Below the pieces are notes generated by a model. It was not told the DNA's origin and searched no databases. It saw only the letters and a program-made list of their open reading frames with translations. DNA of 64,000 nucleotides, from NCBI RefSeq assembly GCF_963675165.1, contig NC_087381.1:6914419-6978418 (forward strand), read 5' to 3'. The stretch's first letter is position 1, and every line of letters starts with the position of its first letter. The stretch is from Halichondria panicea. Taxonomy: Eukaryota; Porifera; Demospongiae; Suberitida; Halichondriidae. Shown here in pieces: positions 21,822 through 64,000 of the stretch. The position numbers and the translations under genes are program-made.

Positions 21822-24800
21822 TTATCCATGCACACGCCCTGCAGCATGCTCCAGTGGATGAGGGCGAGGGGTAGTGAGGGGGCGGGCATACATCTGATCA
21901 CCTGCTGCTGCTGCAATGAAGAGAGGAACTAATAATGTCCATACCACATTGTGCATCATGTTGATAATGGTGCATCATGAACATGTTCGTATAACTCCCA
22001 TGATATTGCTAACTTCGCCATAATTATTGGATTTGGTGTGTAGGCGAGATCCCTAGCTCGTGAACAATTCTGTATGAAATCAACTCTCACCTCTCATATA
22101 GACATTGACAATGAGAGTTGAGAGTTGAAAGGTTACTTCCTACACAGTTGCTACAGTATATATAGTAAGAATTGATCTCGTGGGAGTTTCGATCTAAAAA
22201 CTGACCACAGAACTTCCTGGCCATTATTTTGTATAGCTGTCTATTTGACTATACTTTAGACCTGTGTGTGCGTGGGTACTGCGACCCCCCCCCCTAACCT
22301 TAACCCTAACCCTTTAGACCTGTGTGTGCGTGGGTACTGCGACCCCCCCTAACCTTAACCCTAACCCTTTAGACCTGTGTGTGCGTGGGTACTGCGACCC
22401 CCCCTAACCCTAGACCTGTGTGTACGTGTGCGTGGGTACTGCGACCCCCCCTAACCTTAACCCTAACCCTTTAGACCTGTGTGTGCGTGGGTACTGCGAC
22501 CCCCCCCTAACCCTAGACCTGTGTGTGCGTGTGCATGGGTACTGCGACCCCCCCTAACCTTAACCCTAACCCTTTAGACCTGTGTGTGCGTGGGTACTGC
22601 GACCCCCCCTAACCTTAACCCTAACCCTTTAGACCTGTGTGTGCGTGGGTACTGCGACCCCCCCTAACCCTAGACCTGTGTGTACGTGTGCGTGGGTACT
22701 GCGACCCCCCCTAACCTTAACCCTAACCCTTTAGACCTGTGTGTGCGTGGGTACTGCGACCCCCCCTAACCCTAGACCTGTGTGTGCGTGTGCATGGGTA
22801 CTGCGACCCCCCCTAACCTTAACCCTAACCCTTTAGACCTGTGTGTGCATGGGTACTGCGACCCCACCCCCCTAACCTTAACCCTAACCCTTTAGACCTG
22901 TGTGTGCGTGGGTACTGCGACCCCACCCCTCTAACCCTAACCCTAACCCAAGAACAACACAACACACACAGTACATGATTATAGCAACTTTTATATGGAA
23001 GTAATTAATGGTTTATAGTGAGTTACAATGTTATAAGTATAAAGCACTCACCTGGGAAGGCCCAATAGTTCACAGCGGTCACAGCGGGAGGAGAATGGGT
23101 GAGCCTAGTCTGATAATGTTGGATGCATGTAGCCAGGGTCAGGGTCATCGTCACGGTGAGGGTCATCGCTGTAACAACACAGTATAAAGCTGGTTGATGG
23201 TTAGGAGGATGGAACATGTCCTCGTGGGGATAAGACAGGTAGCGGTCACCAATCCAGGCAATCCAGGGCGAGCCTCTATCAAGCCATCGGTACTTCCCGG
23301 CTGTATGATAAATAAGAACTTCTGATAAATCATTTATAAGATGTAATTGTGACATGTACATGTAACAATAGCTGGACTCAGTATTTCTGTGGGACTATAA
23401 CTAGCAAGAATCACTTACCCAGAGTGGGATGGAGAACGGCAGCTGGGTCTGTGTGGACACACGTGGCCAGAGTCAGGATGCATGTGATGGCCACAACTAC
23501 AGCACCAAACAGAGCAGGGACAAACTGGAACTTCTTTATTCTGGAGACAGAGCCACAAGTCTGGTCATCTAGAACAGTCATGTGTGCATGTGTGAGGGTT
23601 TGTGTACAGTTTACAAGCAAAGTAAGTGACTGGAAAGCATCATTTGTATTGTACATGTACGGGTACTAATCAATGTAGATATTGCATGCATGCATATATT
23701 CAGTGTACCTGTCTTGAAGCGGCTCTGTTGCTCACGAGGTACAGCACTCGAGGTGTTCCCTCCTATCCTGACCTTCTCTACTGGTGCTGTATGAGGTACA
23801 GCACTCGAGGTGTTCCCTCCCATCCTGACCTTCTCTACTGGTGCTGTATGAGGTACAGCACTCGAGGTGTTCCCTCCCATCCTGACCTTCTCTACTGGTG
23901 ATGTCTCCTGGCCATCTAAGGAATGAATATGTGATCTCACCATGCATACCAACATGTACATGTATTGATAGTGCACTGAGGTACTAGAGATGTGCATGAG
24001 ATGTGCGTGAGATGTGCATGAGATGTGCATGAGATGTGTGTGCGTGAGTGTACCTGATACAACGCAGCTCTGTTGATCCTGGGCCACACTGCTAACACTT
24101 GACACATCTTCTTCCACGATCTTGTCTTTCTGTTGGCAGGTTACTGGCTCTTGGACATCTGAGAACGATAAATGTGGGTCATCTAAGCACACCTACCACA
24201 ATAGCCTAGGTCATAGTAACCACACGTGCATGTCACAGCTATAGAACATGTAGATAGATATGCATACTGTTCCTATTTGCGGTGACTGCCATAACGGACT
24301 TACTTATAAGTACACAGATGCTCACCTGGAGTCGTATTCTGCACATGACGTTGCACGACAGGCGTCATCAAAAGTCCAAATTTTTGGGTATGACCTTTAG
24401 ACTCTGTATGGATATTCAACATGTCAATGCTAGCATAGCATCAATTTGGATAGAGAGTTCATTGCACTCTTAGATCATCCATGCAATTAGTGTACTTTGC
24501 ACTTTATACCCTAAATGCACTGGAGCGATTAGTGTATGGTTTCCTAATTGCCATCATTAAACATGTACCTGACATGTACCTGACATGTACCTGACATGTA
24601 CTGCATCATAATTATAACATGCACAGAGTGTACACACCATAGAGTGGAGCTCCTCCAGGGAGAGGTGGTTCCTACAGCAGCAATGGTTAGTAACACTGTA
24701 TCAACAACAGGTATGACATCACGTACCTCTTGGGGGATATCTTCAGGGGCCAGTGGAGCTCTAGGGAGAGGTGGTTCCTACAGCAGCAATGGATAGTAAC

Positions 24801-26723
24801 ACTGTATCAACAACAGGTATGACATCACGTACCTCTTGGGGGCTATCTTCAGGGGCCAGTGGAGCTCCTCCAGGGAGAGGTGGTTCCTACAGCAGCAATG
24901 GATAGTAACACTGTATCAACAACAGGTATGACATCACGTACCTCTTGGGGGCTATCTTCAGGGGCCAGTGGAGCTCCTCCAGGGAGAGGTGGTTCCTACA
25001 GCAGCAATGGTTAGTAACACTGTATCAACAACAGGTATGACATCACGTACCTCTTGGGGGCTATAATCTAGTTCGATTGATTCAAATTCAATTTCCGTGA
25101 GTGTCTTAAATAGTATAACTGAGCTGCCTTGCTCTGTGGGCAGCTCTGTGGGTGAGGCTGTTGTTGTAGATAACGTCCTAGAAGAGTGACATCCAGTGTC
25201 TGTAAAGATACAAAAGTGTCATCAAAATGCTGACAGTGCATTCCAATAAACCTTCTCCAACTTTAGTGGATTCTGGTACAGGTTGTTGCATGGGCTGACG
25301 TCTCCTGACGGTAGTAGTGACAAGTACTTGTGGTTCAACTTGAGCCGGCAAGTTAATTAAAACACAGAGTAACACACGGTAACAGACAAGAGTGACTACT
25401 GTAACCAGCAACTCCTCCATAGGTACACTGACTTGTTCAGGACTAGTTTCATCCTTTGTAGCATCACCAACCTTACTGCTATCCTCACCGCCATCCTTTA
25501 CTTTGTCGTCACCATCAGTTCCATTTTTCACTGCACAACAAAAACATGATCGTAACGCATAATTCCAGTGCTGATACTCTTACTAGGAGCTCCATCACGG
25601 TGTCTTCGATTCTGCTGATCATCACGTTTACTTCTACGTCTATACCACCAGATGATGAGCCCTACCACAAATACCACAAATGCCACCAACACAATGAAAA
25701 CAGTGATGACTCCAGCAATCCATGTTGGATGATTGTACTCTGGAAATGGAACATAGGTACTAGACACACGTGCATAATAGAGATCTTGTTACCATCATTC
25801 ACATCGACCATGGGCGGGAGCTCTGGAGTGAACAAAACTACTCAAATCCAAACATGAACAATACACTTCACTATGTACCTGGTGAGGTATTGTTCAGATC
25901 GGGTTGTTCAGTAGAGGCTGTCCTAGTGTCTACACAGACATCAAGGGAATAAATCGATACAATCCATTGCACACACGTACACGTACCTGTTGGTCCAGTA
26001 GTAGCTTCAGTGCCTTCAGTGGAGGTTGTATCTACTAAAGAACAGTTTCGATCATTATCATTATAGACACAAGTAAAGACTTACTTGGAATGCAGGAGTT
26101 GGAGACTGGTTTGCTACTACCCTCTTCATACAATAGACAACAGACAGGATCAGTGTAGGTGGTGTTCACTAAACACTCGTAGGTGACACCATCGCTCAAA
26201 GCAGTGCACACTCCTTTGATCACTGACAACTCTTGTAGTCGAGTGACACAGGCTCGACCCACTAAGGTGAGTTCACAACCTCTTGTCTCAATCGCCAAGT
26301 GTAACTGAGTATTATTGCAAGTGACCACCCTCCATAAATCGTCTGTAAGAGTCAATTTGCACATATTAACGTACAAAGTACAATGACCAATAAACTAGCT
26401 CTGTGTACAAACAACAATTCTAAAGCCCACATCTCAAGAGTCACAAGTGTTGGTCTCTAGTACATGAGGTGGTTGGAGCTACTTAAAGGTTAGTACTTGG
26501 TAGAGTCAATACTGACAATTGCAGGCGATACTTCATTCTGGAGCCGGAGCTCAGGCTTTCTTAGTAAGTACGTACAAACAACCATCAAAAACAACGATAG
26601 ATCTAGCATGCATTCAACCTTAACTTAAGTCTTACCTGATACTGAGGTGGTCTGCCCTTCCACTAGGAAGATATAGCTGGCCAGCAGCAGCACTGTAAGA
26701 GCCGATATATATAGTGTCTTCAT
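21822..26723 (-). CDS. Unrecognised signal-peptide membrane protein with tandem repeated exons
   Basis: Seventeen exons, right to left: 26723-26636, 26342-26085, 26034-25987, 25929-25879, 25739-25584, 25530-25252, 25199-25051, 24995-24942, 24886-24833, 24777-24727, 24671-24638, 24394-24326, 24158-24054, 23915-23709, 23568-23419, 23300-23052 and a tentative 21910-21822. All phases agree, giving 696 aa. Visible parts: signal peptide (MKTLYISALTVLLLASYIF), a Cys-rich ectodomain (9 Cys in about 85 residues), a Thr/Glu stalk, a strong hydrophobic helix (VITVFIVLVAFVVFVVGLII) followed by WWYRRRSKR, then acidic and Pro-rich regions and further hydrophobic stretches near residues 238-260, 551-573 and 627-650. 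Most introns are phase 1. It contains an 18-aa repeat encoded by four tandem exons and a 19-aa repeat within one exon. I do not recognise the family. It could be a receptor or a multi-pass surface protein. The final exon lies beyond a minisatellite and is the weakest call. Confidence 0.62.
22255..22952. repeat. Telomere-like minisatellite, 13 units
   Basis: Thirteen units, each 'cctgtgtgtgcgtgggtact' then gcga, a poly-C run and one to three CCCTAA-type blocks, with unit lengths of about 41, 55 and 61 bp. Units 2-6 are repeated in the same order as units 7-11, a higher-order repeat of about 260 bp. It lies in the proposed last intron of the minus-strand membrane gene. The minus strand is G-rich and could form G-quadruplexes. 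Confidence 0.92.
23709..23915 (-). repeat. 57-bp in-frame coding repeat, three units in one exon
   Basis: Within one exon of the membrane-protein gene, a 57-bp unit encoding APVEKVRMGGNTSSAVPHT is present three times (the third has M to I). The exon is flanked by phase-1 introns and stays in frame. Confidence 0.92.
24638..25051 (-). repeat. Four tandem copies of a whole exon-intron unit
   Basis: A unit of about 108 bp (exon plus half-kilobase-free short intron) is repeated. Exons 24995-24942 and 24886-24833 are 54 nt and encode EPPLPGGAPLAPEDSPQE; 24777-24727 is 51 nt, an in-frame 3-nt deletion (EPPLPRAPLAPEDIPQE); 24671-24638 is the terminal 34-nt variant with a different donor. All acceptors (tgctgtag) and the phase-0 donors (gagGTACGT) are intact, so any number of copies can be skipped without frameshift. 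Confidence 0.88.
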
Positions 26724-38300: not shown

Positions 38301-41300
38301 TAAGTTTAGATTAAACGGCTCGTGTTAATGGGAATAATTAGACCATAATTTCATAACAAGTAAAAATGTGCAAATGACCAAATTTAGTAAACATTTTTTA
38401 AAGCTACGTACAACAATTTGTCAATTATTTATACCGCACTTATGTCACCACTAATTAATGGATTTCATTAGTAGAAAAAAAACATTCCATCATGCATAGA
38501 TTTCAAGATGTTTCATTTGTTCCAAGAAAACAAGCTAACAGAAAGGGAGACGGTATAGTAATATAATTATGTGAAAGAGTAGCTCAAGGTGCTACCCTTG
38601 TGAATTCTGACCTCATGATGTTGCTAGGGAGAGGTCTTTTCATAGTATTGCGGTCACATGGCATGAGTCACAAATTATGTCACCATTACATAACTCTACT
38701 AGTATACATACGTGTCTTGCTTGGCTACAACAAGAGGGGTCCTATAATTAGCACTATACTGGTACACAGGAGGCTATGCAATTGTACAGAACCCATAAAG
38801 AGCATCAGTAACATACTAATACAGTACAGAAGACCGATAGGCTAAAACCTGAACACTGAAAACAGATTTACTTTTCGCATCACAGTGATGACTGATGGCG
38901 AGATACTTGACAACTTCCCAGTGTCCACCTTGGTAGGCCAGAGAGAGTGGAGTGTCACCAGCCTTGTTGACTGGCTCTGTGGAAGACCACCATCAACAAC
39001 GTAACAGCACTGATGAACACTTACTATTTGGATCAACATGCTTGTTGATGAGAGCCTTGACTGTATCCAGGTTACCATGGGAACACTCAAGGGAGAGAGG
39101 AGTGTCTCCAGCCTCATTCACTGCAACTGTGGATACAAGCAAATTGTGGACACTAGAAAGTTAACAGTTTACTTTGCAGCACACGCACATTTTGGGTCAC
39201 ACTGATGTTCTTGAGCAAGATATTTGATAGTCTCTAAGTGTCTGGTTTGGTAGGCCAGAGAGAGTGGAGTGTCACCAGCCTTGTTGACTGGCTCTGTGGA
39301 AGACCACATGCATGCATTATTGGTTCATTATAGTGCATTTGTATAGTGGCGAGCACTAGGTATGCCCCAACACTCAAGATTGCCACATGTATGCAACAAC
39401 TACAAATTATATACTTGGTGTAGTACACATGCATGTACAATGATAACTTACTTCTAGGATCACAATGATGCTCGTTCACAAGGTACTTGACAGTGTCCAA
39501 GTGGCCATTGGCACAGGCCAGAGAGAGTGGAGTGTCACCAGCCTTGTTGACTGTACCTGTACATGCACACATGCATTGGTTTGTGTTAGCATTAGGTATA
39601 CCACAACATTCCACATTCATGTATGAAGCTATAGTTGGTGCGATACACATGTACGTACGTACAATGATAACTTACTTCTAGGATCACAATGATGCTCGTT
39701 CACAAGATACTTGACTGTGTCCAAGTGGCCATTAGCACAGGCCAGAGAGAGTGGAGTGTCACCAGCCTTGTTGACTGTACCTGGATCACAACGATGCTCG
39801 TTCACAAGATACTTGACAGTGTCCAAGTGGCCATTAGCACAGGCCAGATAGAGTGGAGTGTCACCAGCCTTGTTGACTGTACCTGCAAACCACAGAATTG
39901 TACTTTATGTTGATATACAATGATAATCATAATAGTGTGAGTAACTGCATGACCTTATTACTCAACATTAGTTTGGCCCAGAATATACAAAGCTGATTTT
40001 TCTTGAGGTACCCACTTTCACCTTTTGGATTGAGGCCCACAGTTTCCACAAGATGCTTGACACAGTCCAGCCAGCCATAGAATGCACTTACTGACAGAGC
40101 ACTCTCACCTTCCCCTGCAGTTGGTATTATTGGACAGCATACATAAAATACACTTTCCTACGAGCTTGTGATCAATCTGGAGTCTATAATACTCTAGATC
40201 TAGTATACGCATAAGCCAAAAAGAATGTTTGTACTGTATTACTATACGAGAATCAAACATAGGCAAACTTTGCGAGGGTTGATCAATTCGCAACAAATTA
40301 AAATCGCAAAACCTAAAATAGTACTGATGAAGAAATCGAATACACATGATCCTTGCCAGAACGTAGATCGATCACAAAGGGTAATTTTATCCCCAATTTG
40401 GCTCATTCGCAAAGGTTTTTCATCAGCAAAATATTCTAGTAATACGGTCTACTGGAGCAATCATTTACTGACCTTGCTGAGTGCACACACTCTCTGCCAA
40501 CTTGTACTCTCCAATGCTCACTAGAGCTTCCGCAATATCCTTCCACTGCATGTCAATATTCTTGATTTTGGCTGCCTGGAGAGTTGCTGCTGTGGGATGT
40601 TGGCTCTTCTTTATGGTTTCCAGCTGGTCATTGCCCAATCCCAAGCGAACACCAAATTGAAGCCATTGGTCACATTCCAGCTGACTCAGCTGTTCCAGTG
40701 TTGGGTACGAGGACAGAGGGTCTACATAATAGTTAGAAAAGGAAGTATCAATGAGATTTAGAAGCCAAAGGGACTCATGTAGTATATGAGTGTGCTGAGA
40801 AGGCATACAAATAAGTCCCTGAGGCATTGTCATTGTCTAGTCATGATGCATACATCTGTTGTACACACAAGCTGAGATAGTGATGATAGGGCTATGTACA
40901 AGTAAACTTCAAATATTGTATGGGCGGTGATCAGTGCCAAAACCTCCAGCTCTTTTTATTTAGTACTAAAATCATTTGCATAGTGAAGTTCTACATACAA
41001 ATGACGCGCTCTCTCTTATTTGCATGGTGAAGTTCTACATACAAATGATACTCTCATTTACATGGTGAAGTTCTACATACAAATGACGCGCTCTCTCTTA
41101 TTTGCATGGTGAAGTTCTACATACAAATGATACTCTCATTTGCATGGTGAAGCTCTACATACAAATGATACTCTCGCATTTGCTACTCCCCTTTTCACCT
41201 AAGAAAAGGCTCAGGGGAGAGAGTAATTTTTTTTAACTCCGTTATTGGACACGCCCACTTATGTGACCAAAAAGGATTGCCACATGAGCGGGCGTGTCCA

Positions 41301-43170
41301 ACATGTAGTTGATATGTTAATTAAAATGTCCGTCTATACTATAATGTTAATTGTGTCCTCCTTCAATATGCCACTATAAATTTACAGTTGTCCTATAGGG
41401 GCATGCGTGAAGAATGTCACGCTCCCACAATGTTAACGTCCTAACAACTTGCGTGCCACCACTCACGCATGTACTATTTCTGTTGCTATATAGCCTCGAG
41501 TATAAAATACATTTCTGACGGTCTGGGATCAAAGCTGAATAAACACCCACACATTATGTACTTATAGTGGTTTGTTCTAATTGTATTCCAACCTTCCCTT
41601 TTTCATCCGAGCCCTTCCTTATAGATGAAAAAGGGAGTGGTTTCAAGTTAATGCAAATATATATGAGAGTGTCATTGTAAAACTAACAAAGCTTATCATT
41701 TGCCATGCAGCGTTATTTGTATGTAGAACTTCTCATTTGTATGTAGAACTTTCATCGTATGTAGAACTTCACCATGCAAATAAGAGTATCATTTATATGT
41801 AGAACTTCACCATGCAAACAAGAGAGAGCGTGTCATTTGTATGTAGAACTTCACCATGCAAATGAGAGTATCATTTGTATGTAGAACTTCACATGCAAAT
41901 AAGAGAGAGCGTGTCATTTGTATGTAGAACTTTACCATGCAAATAATTTTAGTACTAAATAAAAAGAACTGGAGGTTTTGGCACTGATCACCCCGGCCCC
42001 ATAATATTGCAAAGTTAGACATTGTGACCAATCATACTACACTATAAAATTATTTGCAAATACGTTTCAACTGTATGAGATTGAACACATATGGAAGGTG
42101 CATGAACGGCATCACACAGAAACCACTTATCTATAGCTGTATTGACCATACAACTCACTAGATACCTACTGACTACTGTGTACAACAGCTGATGGCCAAC
42201 TCACCTCTAGGTCCAGGCTGGAACCCCTCCACATAGTTAGCCAAGGCATGGTGCCCCTCACTTCTGGCCATATCAGCAGCAGTCGATCCCCACATGGTCT
42301 TGATATCTACATGGTTGGTTGAACAGGAGCACATGAACTGACAGTACATGTGGTTTACTGTGTGCTATCACTCCCCAGACATGTACATTGACACAACATA
42401 CAAACAATAATATTAAATTGTCAAACCAATGACATAACATTTTGGATGCTTTGTATAGTTAAATGTATACAAGGGATTATAAATTCGCCAATGTCTACAA
42501 TAATTATGGCTTGCATGTAATAGATAGTAGTACGTACACGTCATCAACAGTATAAGATTGTATCTGCAATAATTCTTCAATTAAGTCGCAAAACTTTAAA
42601 AATGTGTCAAATTTTTCCGCTATACTTGTTGGGACAACTTAACCCTGTACCTACCAGACCATGAAACATGCTAATAAGTGTGTGTAAGTACGTTACATAG
42701 TGGCCACCATTAATTAGCAATGACTTCTCAAATGTACCTACTGTGAATCTTTGCTAGCTACAATGGCGGCACTGCCACACACCTGTACAAGATGACAGAC
42801 ACCTACTGACACAGTTGGACTAACACCCAGGCTCACCTGTGGGACAGTGGTGCTCCAGTAACAGCTTAGCAATGGCCTCACTGTTGTTGTAACATGCTGA
42901 GTGTAAGGGAGTCCAACCACTGAAATGTGTAGCAGTTACAATGGCTCCAAACTTGATGAGTAGTTCTACACTGCGGAGATGGTTTTTAACACATGCCTTG
43001 TGTAGTGGAGTGTCTCCATCACACACTCTAGTGTAGTAGTTACTGTTGTTGGGTGGAGCTCCTCTCTGTAGCAGCTCAAGCACTTCTCGGTCACGACCAC
43101 CATTACTAGCCGAGTAGAGTTGTTTAGCAAGGTTGTCACTATGGGGAGATAAGATGAGTTCAGCCATCAT
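32388..43170 (-). CDS. Gene A: ankyrin - Death - ankyrin - Roc-COR - Death protein
   Basis: Fourteen exons: 43170-42837, 42306-42205, 40721-40473, 40114-40022, 39882-39676, 39556-39452, 39293-39189, 39120-39025, 38976-38872, 35992-33765, 33699-33631, 33405-33354, 33162-32821, 32425-32388; phases agree, 1374 aa. Residues 1-145 are ankyrin repeats (TPLHKAC, TPLHSAC), 146-228 a Death-type helical domain (WLQFGVRLGLG ... WKDIAEALVSIG), 229-520 more ankyrin repeats (GDTPLSLA), most one per phase-1 exon. The large exon encodes a Roc GTPase with P-loop GDGGVGKST (about residue 551), DFAGQKEF and VGSHAD in place of NKxD, then COR. A C-terminal Death domain (EGTQTAMMKCLKIWK ... TYRALLDIVLGLG) follows. 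The ANK-Roc-COR-Death order recalls DAPK1, but no kinase domain is present. Likely an intracellular GTPase scaffold in cell-death or immune signalling (inference). Start may be ATG 43170 or 43167. Confidence 0.8.
32426..32820. other. Last intron of gene A
   Basis: AT-rich intron between the C-terminal Death exon and the 38-nt terminal exon. No other feature seen. Confidence 0.6.
37090..38030 (+). pseudogene. Degraded BEL/Pao-type retrotransposon gag remnant
   Basis: Plus-strand sequence with several frame-broken blocks resembling the N-terminal coiled coil and the DUF1759-type gag region of BEL/Pao LTR retrotransposons (a 'VPTFDG' block, a 'YLENAL' block and an 'HYEEA' block are visible). 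Stops and frameshifts interrupt it and no protease, reverse transcriptase or LTR is seen. It sits in the 2.9-kb intron of gene A between its last small ankyrin exon and the Roc-COR exon. Confidence 0.7.
40921..42001. mobile_element. 1.08-kb foldback/TIR element with repeat-filled arms
   Basis: The ends are inverted copies (GGTGATCAGTGCCAAAACCT at 40926 and its complement ending at 41992), flanked by TA. Both arms contain tandem copies of a roughly 40-bp unit 'tggtgaagttctacatacaa' on the left and its complement 'catttgtatgtagaacttca' on the right, about five to seven per arm. No transposase ORF. It lies in the intron of gene A between the N-terminal ankyrin exons and the first Death exon. Confidence 0.85.
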
Positions 43171-58166: not shown

Positions 58167-58676
58167 TCAATTGGTTTGTAATAATAACAAGCTAGTTTCG
58201 TTAGTTTCATCTATAGGGTCCGTGTTGCCATGGTCACCATCTGTTCCTCTATCCAATTGGCAATTATTGTCACTATGTAAGTTCTCGTTGGGAATGACAG
58301 CAATTGGTTCGTCAATCAAATCGACCAATGGAATGACAGTCTGAGTAGTGACGGATGTACTACTGGTACCGTTATTATTGCAATTTTCATTGTTTCTAAT
58401 TAAGCCATCGTCGAGAAAAATCACACTTTCTTGTTCTGTCTCGGGTAATAGTGCACAGGCTTCTTCGTTTTCTTTATTGCCTCTGTTAACGTAGAGTACA
58501 GAGGTTGAAGAGGAGCGTGGTCGACATCGACCTTTGACCCTTCGACAGACAAAATCGACAGTGAAGTGTAGAACCCCAACAGCAATTATGACGGCCACTA
58601 ATGTAAGCCCCGCCTTCTCAACCTGTGTGTGTGTGTGGGTGGGTGTGTGTGTGTGTGGGTGTGGGTGTATGGGTGT

Positions 58677-58736
<60 letters not shown>

Positions 58737-61109
58737 GGTGTGTGTGTGTGGGTGGGTGTGTTAGTTGTGTGTGTGTAAGTTTTTGGGTGTGTGTGAGAGA
58801 GTGTGTGAAGTGTGTGTGTGTGTGTGTGTGGCGCCTTTGTCTTTTTCTTCTAAATGATACTCTTCAGCAGCTTATACAATATCTTAGACTGCCTGCTATT
58901 AGTAGTTTGAAACCACCACTTGTTATAAAGCTAAGGAAGGTCTATCAAATGGTTTGCTTAGATCAACAGTCATGTATGATGTAAGGTGTGTCACATGACA
59001 TGCTCCAGGAGTTAGGTGATTGTACTTACGGTGGTGAACGAGCTCTGAGGTGTGTAAGGTATGACAATATCATGCTGGGTGCGGTTTAATGGTGGACAGA
59101 GGAATGGAGACTCCACTGAGCCATTGGATACTGCCTCCTCCACCAATCTGTGAGGGGGAGTGTGAGGGTGTGTGTGAGGTGTGGGGGCGTGGGGGCGTAG
59201 GTGAATATTACTATATACAATCAATTCAACTCGAAGTTGTTTCAGAAAGATCTCCTATTACCACTAAAAATTGAACATTTTGACCAGAAATCCTTTACAT
59301 CACTAGCTGATCTAAACACCTCATCAATTTCAAAGGGCTACAAAAATTAATGCATTTTTAATTGTGAAATCGAATCCAAGTTATGAGCAAATAAAGTCAG
59401 CCTATAAATAACGCTAACTCACTCTTGTCTGCTAGTGACGTCCTCTGGAGTAACTGACGACCCGTAAAAGGTCAAAGTCCAGTTGTTAACCACACCTTCT
59501 TTACGTTCACGTCCGGGACATACTACACACACAACAATCAAACGTGACAATAACAACAACCTATATTATAGTAGCTTACGATTAGTGTGGTCTGTGATGT
59601 TGAGTATCCACTGACCAACTGGCCCCTCCCCCCAATAACGAGCAGAGGTAAACGTCCAATCAAATCCATCCTGTGAACTGTAGAGTACTGATAATAATTG
59701 TTTCAAAGAGTCAATGGCATAACCTCAGTTTTACTACACAAAAAAAGGTTTGAAATGACCCATTTTGGTTACTTGCATGTTTGTACAAGGGTTACGTACG
59801 TGTCATAGCGTCGTGGTGTGATAAGTGTGGAGTGTGTGGGTGTGGGAGATGTGAGGGTGACCTCCAGTGACCCTCGGCAAACATGAGCCACCCGTATCGT
59901 CACGGCAACATACTCCAATGTAACCAGTCCATCAGGAATATCCGCACGAGTAACTGTATTAATTACAGAAAGCACCACCTGATGTGCTGATGCCTCAGTG
60001 GAGGTGCCAAAGCTACATAACATACAACCAAGGGCGTATGAAGAGAAGAGGGCATGCAACTCACAATGTAAACTGCGTATGCGTCAAAAAACTGATAAGT
60101 CAGCAGGATATGCTATATTTAGCCAACCGCCCACTAGAGGAGGTTGGTCACGATTAATTAAGATTCACGTGAGCTTATGTTTTCTATGTAAAAACTCCAA
60201 GCTGCTGAGTCGGCATATTTTATCTACTTTCTTCCATTAGCTTGTTTATCTCTCTTGTATAACATGTCCTGTTAGTTTATGAGTCGTAGTAGTTTAACAC
60301 TATGATTGCTATACCTGCTACATCAAGACAGGAGTTAAAGAAACCAAGGATTTGAGGCAGCAACTCAAAGTTTGTGGTTTCTGGCTTGTTGCTTCTAGTA
60401 CGACTATGCTACTCACTTTCTAGTGTCACTGAGCATTGTTAGCATCATTTACTACTAGTATAGAGAGCTACAATCATCTGCAGTATGTTAGCTAGCTAGC
60501 TTAGCTAGAATAGCTACTTTCTCTGTAAGTTTCCGTATATCTTCACCGTGCACGCACAAAAACGGTGCACGTGCAATGCATACTTTACTATTTTTAGATA
60601 TAAGACCCCGCCCATTTGTTTTCTGATAGATAGTAGTTGCATGCCCTCTTCTCTTCATACGCCCTTGATACAACTATACACACATTTATGATGATTAATT
60701 TAGCTGCATGCGGGAAACTCAGATAGTGGGTAATGATCGACCATGATTGTTGTTAAAAACGATCGATGCCAAATTTTAAGTCTAAAATTAATGGCAAGTC
60801 AGCAGAGCCTTGCAGCTCTCTTCTCACTCTGCAGCTACCAATTGCTAGCGTTCTAGTGCAGAGCTAACTACTAAGTAGAGTAGCAACACTCGGTGAACAA
60901 GTTTGGCTACGGACTCTTCTGAATAGGCTGCAAGTAAGCAAAACTAGGCATAACTCGAGAGCGAAGTTTTATTTTGCAAATCCAACCATTGCAAGCCAAG
61001 AAAACATGACTAGAAGCCTATAGAAACTCTTACTTGCACTTCATTGATCCTTGAGCAGCTGAAACAGTCTACACACGCACGCACGCACGCACGCACACAC
61101 GCACGCACG

Positions 61110-61182
<73 letters not shown>

Positions 61183-63163
61183 CCGTGTACCTCACTTGCG
61201 CTGCGCACCGAGGCATAATTAATAATTTACCTTTGATTGTTTGTATGAGTGGCTGTCCGGTCGTTGGCATAGCAACTGCCCGCCCCCCTTCCACACTTGT
61301 CACAACCATTGCCGGTAGCAACGGCCATACGGCTGCCGTCAATGTTAGTCTATAACTATCCATGAGTCCAAAGCCGTGTTGATCAGAGTGATGAAACCCA
61401 GCGCCATTAGCCACCCAGTGTGCTCCAGTGACATCCACCGTGAGGGCAGAGTAGATAACAATGGCCTGTACGTCACGCCAGGTCAGACACGGCCTGTGTG
61501 TGTGTGGTGTGTGGAGTGGGCGTGTGTGAGGGCAGAATAGATAACAATGGCCTGTACATCACGCCAGGTCAGACAAGGCCTGTGTGTGTGTGGTGTGTGA
61601 TGTGGGTGTGTGTGAGAGCCGAGTATATAACAATGGCCTGTATATCACGCCAGGTCAGACAAGGCCTGTGTGTGTGGTGTGTGCGTGTGTGAGGGCGGAG
61701 TATAATTATAACAATGGCCTGTATGTCACGCCAGGTCAGACAAGGCCTGTGTGTGTGGTGTGTGGTGTGTGGAGTGGGTGTGTGTGAGGGCGGAATATAT
61801 AACAATGGCCTGTACATCACGCCAGGTCAGTGGGCGTGTGTGTGTGGAGTGGGCGTGTGTGGAGTGGGGAACATAGTTGTATTACTATAGCAGGCCCTCA
61901 CTGGGAGGTGGTGGTGATTGGTACTACATGTATTATATAGTAGGCTAAGAGGCACATTTGTGAATTGTGATAGAGGATTGAAAACGGTCACAACATTCTG
62001 CATGGTCACATGACTGAAATAGGGAATGTACATGTAGTAATCCAGCCCTGGGAGTTATGTGGTCAATTATGGCTTCATTATGTTGTTGACAAGTATGCCA
62101 GGGACTTTTAACTTTAGCTGGTTGAAAGCTTATCAGTTCTAGATGTCAGTGTCAGTGAAGTTATGACAAGTTATGACACCACTCAGAGCCTCACCTGACC
62201 TCCAGCATGAGTGCCACCATCCCTGCTGCTATTGGAGCAGCTGCAGAAGTACCTGAAAACTTATCAGTACAACCTCCGTGATTAGAACCATCTGTGGTTA
62301 CGATGCTACGACGTTGACCGTTACTATAGGTAACGGCGAGCATTGCGGCACAGGGCTCTGCGTAATAGGGCATTCTGTTGAGCTCATCCACAGCACCTGA
62401 GGAGATGGTACATGTCTTCACAATATGTAACTACTACATGCACAGAAGTATTTCAGCACATCATTGGAAAGGTAATTCTGAGAACTATCAATTAGTTTTG
62501 AAATTGGACAATCTGGGATTACAGGCTCTTAAGAAACCAACTGGGCATAACTTTAGGTTGAAACTAAAAATGCTGTAGCTTTACGAGAGGTGGTATCACA
62601 TGACATGCTTACATCGCAATATCTGGGACTGATAAATGCATAAGTACGGTAATAATAATCTATTGAGTAGCTATTAGCTGGTTACCGATGGTCAATGTGT
62701 AGACTGAGTTAGCGTATCCATCGAAGTTGCAGTTGTCGTTCATTGTCCCTCCGTTACCAGAGGCAAACACATACACGCTACCGTAACCATAGCGACCAAG
62801 ATGCGTACCAAGGTGCAATGCCTCCTATAGCAAATAAACACATGTAACATATGATTAATAATCATTATCTGCATATTGTAATTTAAGATATTTTCGTAAT
62901 TATGTTTAATTAGAAAGTATTTATTCCAGTTAGTGCTCACCTGTGCTAGTTTCCCGGGCCCCTCTATGGTGCGGCCGTTATCCTCAGGCCCCCAACTGCA
63001 ACTATACACATGGTTAACATGAGCCTTGTACACAAACGATTGAGCTTCCAAAATATCCGTGACACTTCCATCGAGCATTCGTATCCCGGACACACGGCTA
63101 CCAAATGCCACGCCCACTCCACACACATCATTGTTGGCTACTGCCGCTATTAGTCCAGCACAT
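58167..63163 (-). CDS. Furin/PCSK-type proprotein convertase, 3' part; gene runs off the right edge
   Basis: Exons in window: 63163-62941, 62824-62686, 62396-62195, 61493-61231, 59986-59796, 59670-59580, 59522-59423, 59147-59030, 58622-58167. Phases agree (the 5' border of 59986 is the least sure). The subtilisin-like domain shows [35 protein letters not shown], the oxyanion Asn in ASGNGG, and the catalytic Ser in SGTSAAAP. Then come [10 protein letters not shown], the P domain ([51 protein letters not shown]), a membrane helix ([20 protein letters not shown]) and a tail of about 125 residues rich in Asn, Asp and Thr. The catalytic Asp and His exons are right of the window. These enzymes cleave precursors after paired basic residues in the secretory pathway; the membrane anchor fits a furin-like Golgi enzyme. 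Confidence 0.9.
58625..58835. repeat. (GT)n microsatellite
   Basis: GT-rich run starting three bases beyond the last convertase exon. On the minus strand it is the CA-rich tract that ends in that exon's acceptor (cacacag). Confidence 0.9.
60029..60667. mobile_element. hAT-like MITE in the convertase P-domain intron
   Basis: A 639-bp element with 33-bp perfect terminal inverted repeats (beginning CAAGGGCGTATGAAGAGAAG) and a 7-bp flanking duplication ATACAAC on each side (22-28 before, 68-74 after, in the 60000s and 60600s). No transposase. It starts only 43 bp from the P-domain exon acceptor. Confidence 0.9.
61070..61183. repeat. (CACG)n/(CA)n microsatellite
   Basis: ACGC tetranucleotide repeats grading into pure CA, in the convertase intron next to exon 61493-61231. 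Confidence 0.9.
61450..61845 (-). repeat. Minisatellite of a convertase 3' splice site plus exon start
   Basis: Five tandem units of about 80-90 bp. Each contains, on the minus strand, a CA-rich tract, an acceptor (cacacag) and the first codons of the exon (coding CLTWRD[VI]QAIVI). The unit nearest 61493 is the real exon; the four to its right are partial decoy exons with intact AG. Confidence 0.85.
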
Positions 63164-63427
63164 CTGTATGAGGGGGGGAGTCAAAGTTTAATGGCTTTGT
63201 TGACATACTAACTTTATTGGTTTCGACATAATGAAAGCATTCCCTGGCAGAGTGTGGGCACGTTCACTACACAAGTTAGGGACAATGGGGGCCAGAAATA
63301 AATCACTGATTCTATAAGTAGACCTAACTTTTTTGGGGAAATCGGATGTTCACAACACAAGTTATATAGCTCACGCTTTTTTTTTCGAAAATGGACAATT
63401 TGGGCTGACCTAAGCACCATAATTATT

Positions 63428-64000
63428 GTGTGTGTACCTAGTGCCGGGGTGTGTGTGTGTGTGTGTGTACCTAGTGCCGGGGTGTGTGTGTGTGTGTGTG
63501 TACCTAGTGCCGGGGTGTGTGTGTGTGTGTGTGTGTACCTAGTGCCGGGGTGTGTGTGTGTGTGTGTGTACCTAGTGCCGGGGTGTGTGTGTGTGTACCT
63601 AGTGCCGGGGTGTGTGTGTGTGTGTGTGTGTGTACCTAGTGCCGGGGTGTGTGTGTGTGTGTGTGCCTAGTGCCGTGGGTGTGTGTGTGTGTGTGTACCT
63701 AGTGCCGGGGTGTGTGTGTGTGTGTGTGTACCTAGTGCCGGGGTGTGTGTGTGTGTGTGTGTACCTAGTGCCGGGGTGTGTGTGTGTGTGTGTGTACCTA
63801 GTGCCGGGGTGTGTGTGTGTGTGTGTGTGTACCTAGTGCCGGGGTGTGTGTGTGTGTGTGTGTACCTAGTGCCGGGGTGTGTGTGTGTGTGTGTACCTAG
63901 TGCCGGGGTGTGTGTGTGTGTGTGTGTGTGTACCTAGTGCCGGGGTGTGTGTGTGTGTGTGTGCCTAGTGCCGTGGGTGTGTGTGTGTGTGTGTACCTAG
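63428..64000 (-). repeat. Minisatellite of a 5' splice site, at least 17 units, open at right edge
   Basis: Seventeen complete and one cut unit of 26-38 bp. On the minus strand each reads CA-rich DNA, then CCCCGGCACTAG followed by GTACAC. 'GGCACTAG|GT' fits the end of the convertase exon coding the catalytic HGT-R motif, and ends in the phase 2 needed by exon 63163. Units 8 and 17 differ (CCCACGGCACTAG|GC), nine units apart. Confidence 0.9.

Follow-up and report, generated by a model that had tools for sequence, protein, structure and literature searches.

Locus and gene model

The window examined here is a stretch of 64,000 nucleotides from the genome of Halichondria panicea (C5:6914419-6978418); the contig sequence was also read rightward beyond the window edge. 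The right-hand part of the window and the adjoining bases hold a minus-strand gene whose 11-exon model encodes an uninterrupted furin/kexin-type convertase of 809 aa, and two tandem arrays of splice sites lie within this gene (Table 1). Exon junctions were set by eye. A custom spliced aligner, given residues 31-640 and the DNA, returned the same first nine introns (intron 10 was out of range), an agreement that is a check of the junctions and is circular for gene identity.

Pfam matches were obtained for the S8 catalytic domain (PF00082, 8.3e-45), the S8 pro-domain (PF16470, 1.4e-12) and the P domain (PF01483, 1.6e-17). With the first 682 of the 809 residues as the query, furin 1p8j aligned to residues 131-608 (8e-114), and kexin matched too. 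The contexts of the catalytic Asp, His, Asn and Ser in the furin alignment were VVDDG/ILDDG, HGTRCAG, ASGNGG and GTSA(A/S)AP. Judged by its domains and catalytic residues, the gene product is a furin/kexin-type proprotein convertase. It may resemble PC7; no chain named PC7 was present among the best 60 of the 72 PDB matches, and a literature search found no paper on PC7 intron positions.

Exon 2 ends in HGT-AG and exon 3 starts with A-TGT-GCT-GGA, so that intron 2 interrupts the Arg codon of HGTRCAG in phase 2. The introns flanking exon 2 measure 193 nt (upstream) and 833 nt (downstream), those flanking exon 6 measure 701 and 1244 nt. Intron 2 ends in the acceptor CTCATACAG|ATGTGC, which is unlike the donor unit, and approximately 274 nt of this intron lie outside the array.

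Table 1. Features of the convertase gene and its two splice-site arrays (window positions; exon 2 in extended coordinates; the vertical line marks the splice point).
Feature	Position	Strand	Remarks
Donor array	63427..64000	-	33-bp unit, coding strand (CA)n CCCCGGCACTAG|GTACAC(CA)n; 18 units; end approximately 12 bases past the window edge
Authentic exon 2 donor TAG|GTACAC	63991..63999	-	First base of the intron at 63996
GC variant donor, unit k=1	63963..63964	-	Has CCCACGG, as does exon 2
GC variant donor, unit k=10	63665..63666	-	Has CCCACGG, as does exon 2
Donor k=2	63932..63933	-	Sole other frame-preserving donor: +63 nt, 21 aa after HGTR
Acceptor array	61440..61868	-	Units (CA)nCACAG| plus first approximately 52 nt of exon 6; 81-86 nt between acceptors
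Exon 2 (catalytic His)	63997-64085 (extended)	-	Ends ...KLDNTHGT-AG|GTACACAC
Exon 3	62941..63163	-	Starts A-TGT-GCT-GGA, phase 2
Exon 4	62686..62824	-	Oxyanion-hole Asn, ASGNGG
Exon 5	62195..62396	-	Catalytic Ser, GTSAAAP
Exon 6	61231..61493	-	Its acceptor closes the acceptor array and is the productive one
Exon 7	59796..59986	-	P domain; of four nearby AGs, only the chosen acceptor keeps the frame
Exon 8	59580..59670	-	P domain
Exon 9	59423..59522	-	P domain end
Exon 10	59030..59147	-	-
Exon 11	58167..58622	-	By eye: hydrophobic (membrane-like) stretch, tail, stop; CA-tract acceptor

Donor array

Over the span given in Table 1, TRF reported a 33-bp tandem repeat with 17.5 copies inside the window (score 928). 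The exact core TGTACCTAGTGCC occurs 15 times on the plus strand of the window, as compared with a mean of 0.01 and a maximum of 1 in 100 dinucleotide shuffles. The 14-mer GTGTACCTAGTGCC yielded at least 16 matches in the genome (131 Mb, 39 contigs), every one listed being inside the donor array, and its reversed-pattern control yielded none in the same 131 Mb.

With the sequence beyond the window edge included, the array comprises 18 units. Sixteen of them carry the identical 9-mer TAG|GTACAC and the other two read AG|GCAC. At all GT units GTACACACAC is present, i.e., a CA tract lies directly downstream of the donor. The CCCACGG of the exon is kept in both GC units, and the 15 other intronic units have CCCCGG; in the CAC-GGC-ACT register these ordinary units read CCC-GGC-ACT (Pro-Gly-Thr). 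The unit that is cut by the window edge is the real end of exon 2, ...THGT(R) CACGGCACTAG|GTACAC. In coding order the donors are spaced 32, 31, 37, 31, 33, 35, 33, 33, 33, 32, 31, 37, 27, 33, 35, 33 and 33 nt apart. An alignment of units k=0-8 with units k=9-17 (285 columns) is free of mismatches and contains one 4-nt gap, which indicates that a block of nine units was copied very recently.

The preliminary description had given the position, the unit and the two GC variants with their CAC-GGC-ACT codons correctly. It had also read the unit as the catalytic-His exon's end together with the donor, joined in phase 2 to the (A)-Cys-Ala-Gly of the following exon. Extension to the right bore this out: the catalytic-His exon lies immediately to the right of the array and ends in ...DNTHGT(R), the phase 2 joint is seen at the junction of exons 2 and 3, and the opposite outcome, a catalytic-His exon elsewhere with a different 3' end, did not occur.

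The strength of the array donor was scored with a position weight matrix (PWM) built from 31 other donors (32 rows including the array donor). Of the 51 introns considered for this set (50 plus the hand-added intron 10), 19 were dropped because the position was outside the list of shared positions or the donor was GC. TAG|GTACAC scored 4.30 bits, which is weaker than 25 of the 31 other donors and within their range, the ranks being rough because identical donors are common to some paralogs and the rows are thus non-independent. RNA structure was rejected as a function of the array: the transcript of exon 2 plus array folds worse than 20 of 20 shuffles (z +3.37), which makes a structural role unlikely.

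Each donor was joined to exon 3 in turn. An open frame results only from the exon-proximal donor (k=0) and from k=2. The other 16 of the 18 donors lead to a stop, which lies within the array for k=3-17 (15 donors) and in exon 3, after a frameshift, for k=1. The reading frames thus give no support for an interchangeable donor or for the buffered splice site suggested in the preliminary description. The residues added by k=2 follow HGTR, at what we take to be the start of the helix bearing the catalytic His; on this structural reasoning the k=2 protein is expected to be inactive.

Acceptor array

A second array, which falls outside the coordinates of the preliminary description, closes intron 5 of the same gene and is the mirror image of the first, in that an acceptor and the start of an exon are repeated. 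Four copies are intact, including exon 6's own; the first exon bases of the intact upstream acceptors are 61746, 61665 and 61579, and a decayed copy lies at approximately 61829. The distances from one intact acceptor to the next are 81, 86 and 86 nt. The frame is open only from the last acceptor (61493), and all three upstream intact acceptors lead to stops.

Third codon positions make up six of the seven exon columns that vary among the five copies, as compared with 18 of the 52 columns overall (hypergeometric P 0.005), in a post hoc test whose columns share history and from which the 4-nt insertion of the 61746 copy was excluded. Such a bias would suggest either that the copies were repeatedly derived from the selected exon or that some of them were translated. 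The 4-nt insertion in the 61746 copy and the decay of the copy at approximately 61829 make it less likely that these two copies are coding at present.

CA tracts and CA-binding factors

CA/TG tracts of at least 10 nt account for 4.7% of the sequence in the gene region, as compared with 2.35% over the whole window and 0-0.7% at the loci of four paralogs. In the next 9.5 kb beyond, the value is 4.6%, so that the CA density is regional and not gene-specific. Six or seven CA units run into the AG at three of the 10 introns of the convertase gene, namely at the acceptors of exons 2, 6 and 11, which in the model are CA tracts without a pyrimidine tract. In the 22 paralog introns that were kept, the longest CA run into the AG is three units, in one intron. 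A looser rule (three CA units at any place within the final 20 bases) selects 6 of 32 acceptors, three from this gene and three from paralogs; the statement on CA-type acceptors is based on the longer runs and not on this rule. The pyrimidine fraction is 0.50-0.60 upstream of the donor units vs. 0.50 at the four CA-type exon 6 acceptors.

A 71-aa fragment encoded on contig C15 matches hnRNP L chains only (5 PDB sequences, E 5e-14), and a PTBP1-like fragment on contig C4 is distinct from it. The cut-off of TIGR01649 was reached by none of the 12 genome matches, all of which are exon-sized pieces, several of them collinear on C15. The eNOS gene reportedly has a CA-repeat enhancer that adjoins a donor and acts with hnRNP L. 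The convertase array resembles this arrangement in the CA tract directly downstream of the donor, where hnRNP L binding is putative; to our knowledge, no donor is amplified in eNOS. Given the hnRNP L-like and PTBP1-like fragments, it is plausible that a CA-binding factor acts on the array donor.

Paralogs

The codons for HGT-x-C run on without a break in each of the 11 convertase-like loci caught by a pattern search (within L011-L055), a count in which 'convertase-like' was judged by eye, other S8 loci that were caught (e.g., L011, L014 and L015) were set aside, and convertase loci missed by the pattern (e.g., L033, L035 and L036) as well as unfetched matches are left out. The spliced aligner placed an intron at the position of the donor array in none of four paralogs. 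On both grounds, and for the loci covered, the donor array was rejected as a feature of the convertase family. The intron that holds the acceptor array (phase 2, q404) is common to two of the four paralogs, and the spliced aligner gave the other two a poorly placed intron nearby.

The P domain has at least 20 matches in the genome, two of them from the convertase gene itself. Tandem clusters of convertase-like genes with P domains were seen at C16:5065000-5138500 and C4:2388000-2542000 (L042-L055 region), and represent a lineage expansion.

Origin and use of the arrays

The anatomy of the arrays, the gene model, the reading frames and the recent block duplication of donor units are established, and they are best explained, with a probability of roughly two in three, by young minisatellites that arose from CA-flanked splice junctions, the exon-proximal site of each array being mainly used and the rest being decoys. 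The donor of the catalytic-His exon (the last approximately 12 exon nt plus the intron start) would have been repeated into the intron to give the 18-unit array, and the acceptor with the first approximately 52 nt of exon 6 would have been repeated back into its own intron. The duplications may have come about by slippage or unequal exchange, with the CA tracts providing short stretches of homology. The exon-proximal donor is probably chosen through exon definition, perhaps with CA-binding hnRNP L aiding a weak donor, and leak to the other units would give mostly non-productive messages, which is why the arrays are regarded as tolerated decoys and not as a designed switch. The conserved protein comes from the exon-proximal donor together with the exon-proximal acceptor; since the gene looks open and constrained, these sites are presumably the most used, with some leak.

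Published work is cited here from partial texts of the reports. According to one of these (PMC9225289, partial text), human 5' sites of equal strength are chosen by intron length, short introns favoring the donor nearest the acceptor and long introns the donor nearest the exon's own acceptor. The same text describes a heightened preference for the upstream 5' site at equal strength in 'SL' exons (short upstream, long downstream intron), and minigenes with two equal strong 5' sites that used the upstream one exclusively. Exon 2 falls in the 'SL' class by its intron lengths of 193 and 833 nt. When the equal 5' sites were weak, minigenes with a smaller exon kept the upstream preference and those with a larger exon skipped the exon; without control for strength, the downstream 5' site was preferred in most events in all four intron classes (PMC9225289, partial text). 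For 3' sites between long introns, the upstream preference is described there as reduced, with some of it kept, and this residual preference, applied to exon 6, would favor the unproductive acceptors. The choice within the acceptor array would thus be less clear than the choice of donor from these equal-site data, and the third-position bias among the acceptor-array copies appears odd for inert decoys.

Comparable data are available for the VNTR in intron 18 of ABCA7, which extends from the exon 18 donor in 25-bp units (23.7 in the reference) and is tolerated (PMC5954066, partial text). An isoform that retains one unit amounts to 2 +/- 1%, is unaffected by array length and is frameshifted; skipping of the next exon (exon 19) is length-dependent, and in brain area BA10 the alternative isoforms, mainly exon 19 skipping, summed to more than the canonical isoform in 90% of the cases (PMC5954066, partial text). 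By analogy, a longer donor array in the convertase gene may raise skipping of exon 3, which by computation would shift the frame and give a stop at aa 243.

Against the young-minisatellite explanation, both arrays might be under selection as a dial for unproductive splicing, unit number and CA-binding factors determining what share of the convertase message acquires a premature stop by splicing and is degraded. This is unlikely, even though both arrays lie in catalytic-domain exons of one gene, stops result from 16 of 18 donors and three of four intact acceptors, an hnRNP L-like fragment is present in the genome, and longer ABCA7 VNTRs go with lower expression and with more exon 19 skipping (PMC5954066, partial text). 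The donor array is young and homogenised, and none of the four aligned paralogs has an intron at its position. With CA tracts dense throughout the region, mutation may account for the presence of two arrays within a single gene, and in the same partial text ABCA7 unit retention is unchanged with length. A related idea, speculative and to be given little weight, is that the two mirror-image arrays could form a copy-number-tunable valve that sets the amount of productive message, the decoy exon copies being kept near coding quality by unequal exchange that feeds the exon-proximal position.

That the unit number or the whole array stems from a collapsed or expanded read consensus is improbable. 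An assembler could mimic the mismatch-free duplication of a nine-unit block, but approximately 0.6 kb would be a small span for long reads, provided that the assembly was built from them, the unit lengths vary in an ordered way, and the junction of exon and array is clean.

Stepwise removal of the intron, in which AG|GT units behind CA tracts act as 3' and then as 5' sites (recursive or dual-specific splicing), is highly improbable. All GT units do read ...CACTAG|GTACAC, the gene has the CA-tract acceptors without pyrimidine tract at exons 2, 6 and 11, and dual-specific AGGT sites in tandem repeats have been described for UBC (PMC10809524, partial text). The pyrimidine fraction upstream of the units is nevertheless only 0.50-0.60, CCCCGGCACT stands between the CA tract and the AG, and an intron of 833 nt needs no ratchet.

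Gain of intron 2 by duplication of a proto-splice site, as proposed for Drosophila (PMC2891723, partial text) and for human repeats (PMC2812944, partial text), has a very small chance of being correct and was rejected on its defining feature: although codons at the array position are uninterrupted in 11 of 11 loci and the four aligned paralogs lack the intron, the acceptor of intron 2 is no copy of the unit, approximately 274 nt of the intron are non-array, the acceptor array sits in an intron common to at least two of the four paralogs, and loss of an ancient intron elsewhere is equally possible.

Comparison with known systems

VNTRs anchored at a donor (ABCA7) and exon-boundary minisatellites (PMC2812944, partial text) have been described before. 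The donor array contains the canonical donor and abuts exon 2, as in a donor-anchored VNTR of the ABCA7 type. Both are arrays of short units that start at an exon donor; in ABCA7 the first two bases are the GT, and the donor of the next unit is also used (PMC5954066, partial text). The ABCA7 unit, however, begins at the GT, whereas the convertase unit adds the last exon bases (CGGCACTAG) and a CA microsatellite as spacing. RNA and length polymorphism were measured for ABCA7, the convertase array being known from one assembly, and the partial text on ABCA7 mentions no acceptor array, such as is present in the convertase gene.

In human segmental-duplication genes, minisatellites at exon-intron boundaries were reported with 27 intron modifications (PMC2812944, partial text). 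The units of approximately 30 bp at exon-intron boundaries and the ability to alter splicing are shared with the convertase array; the differences are that those repeats average four units in recent paralogs and concern novel introns, compared with 18 donors in a single-locus gene. UBC likewise has tandem AG|GT motifs, one in each unit, but its units are coding ubiquitin monomers (PMC10809524, partial text), whereas most of the convertase units disrupt the reading frame and the real acceptor lies outside the array. GYNGYN and NAGNAG tandem sites resemble the array as adjacent competing splice sites, but occur as pairs that are usually separated by a few bases, in contrast to 18 sites over approximately 560 nt.

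Among the matches listed in a search of the open-licence literature, none described a gene with both a donor array and an acceptor array. The convertase gene is unusual in how many equal donors it contains, each including exon sequence, and most of all in having a mirror-image acceptor array as well. Serial identical sites constitute a natural duplicated-splice-site experiment on whether the spliceosome takes the exon-side or the intron-side copy. A single gene here offers 16 donors with the same 9-mer and four near-equal acceptors, and the frames make the choice readable from RNA or from enzyme output. The arrays also suggest how a splice junction can become amplified through the CA tracts beside it. 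This would be a possible early step to new introns or to expression that depends on length, for which ABCA7 provides a human example linked to disease.

Other repeats in and near the window

Several further repeats were observed. At 24643-25064 a 109-bp unit is present in 3.9 copies, and its minus-strand units hold the donor-like CAAGAG|GTACGTGATG adjoining an open frame; this is possibly another splice-site array, in a different gene. An in-frame duplication of 102 bp (97% matches, minus strand) at 39681-39885 encodes GTVNKAGDTPL...LACANGHLDTVKYLVNEH, presumably an ankyrin repeat. A 55-bp minisatellite with 13 copies at 22254-22949 contains CCCTAACC motifs and is telomere-like on its face. 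Two arrays of 38-bp units, at 40972-41175 and 41757-41946, lie approximately 0.6 kb apart, and their consensus units are apparently mutual reverse complements. Approximately 10 kb past the donor array, a 29-bp minisatellite with 10 copies was found (L010:4331-4623).
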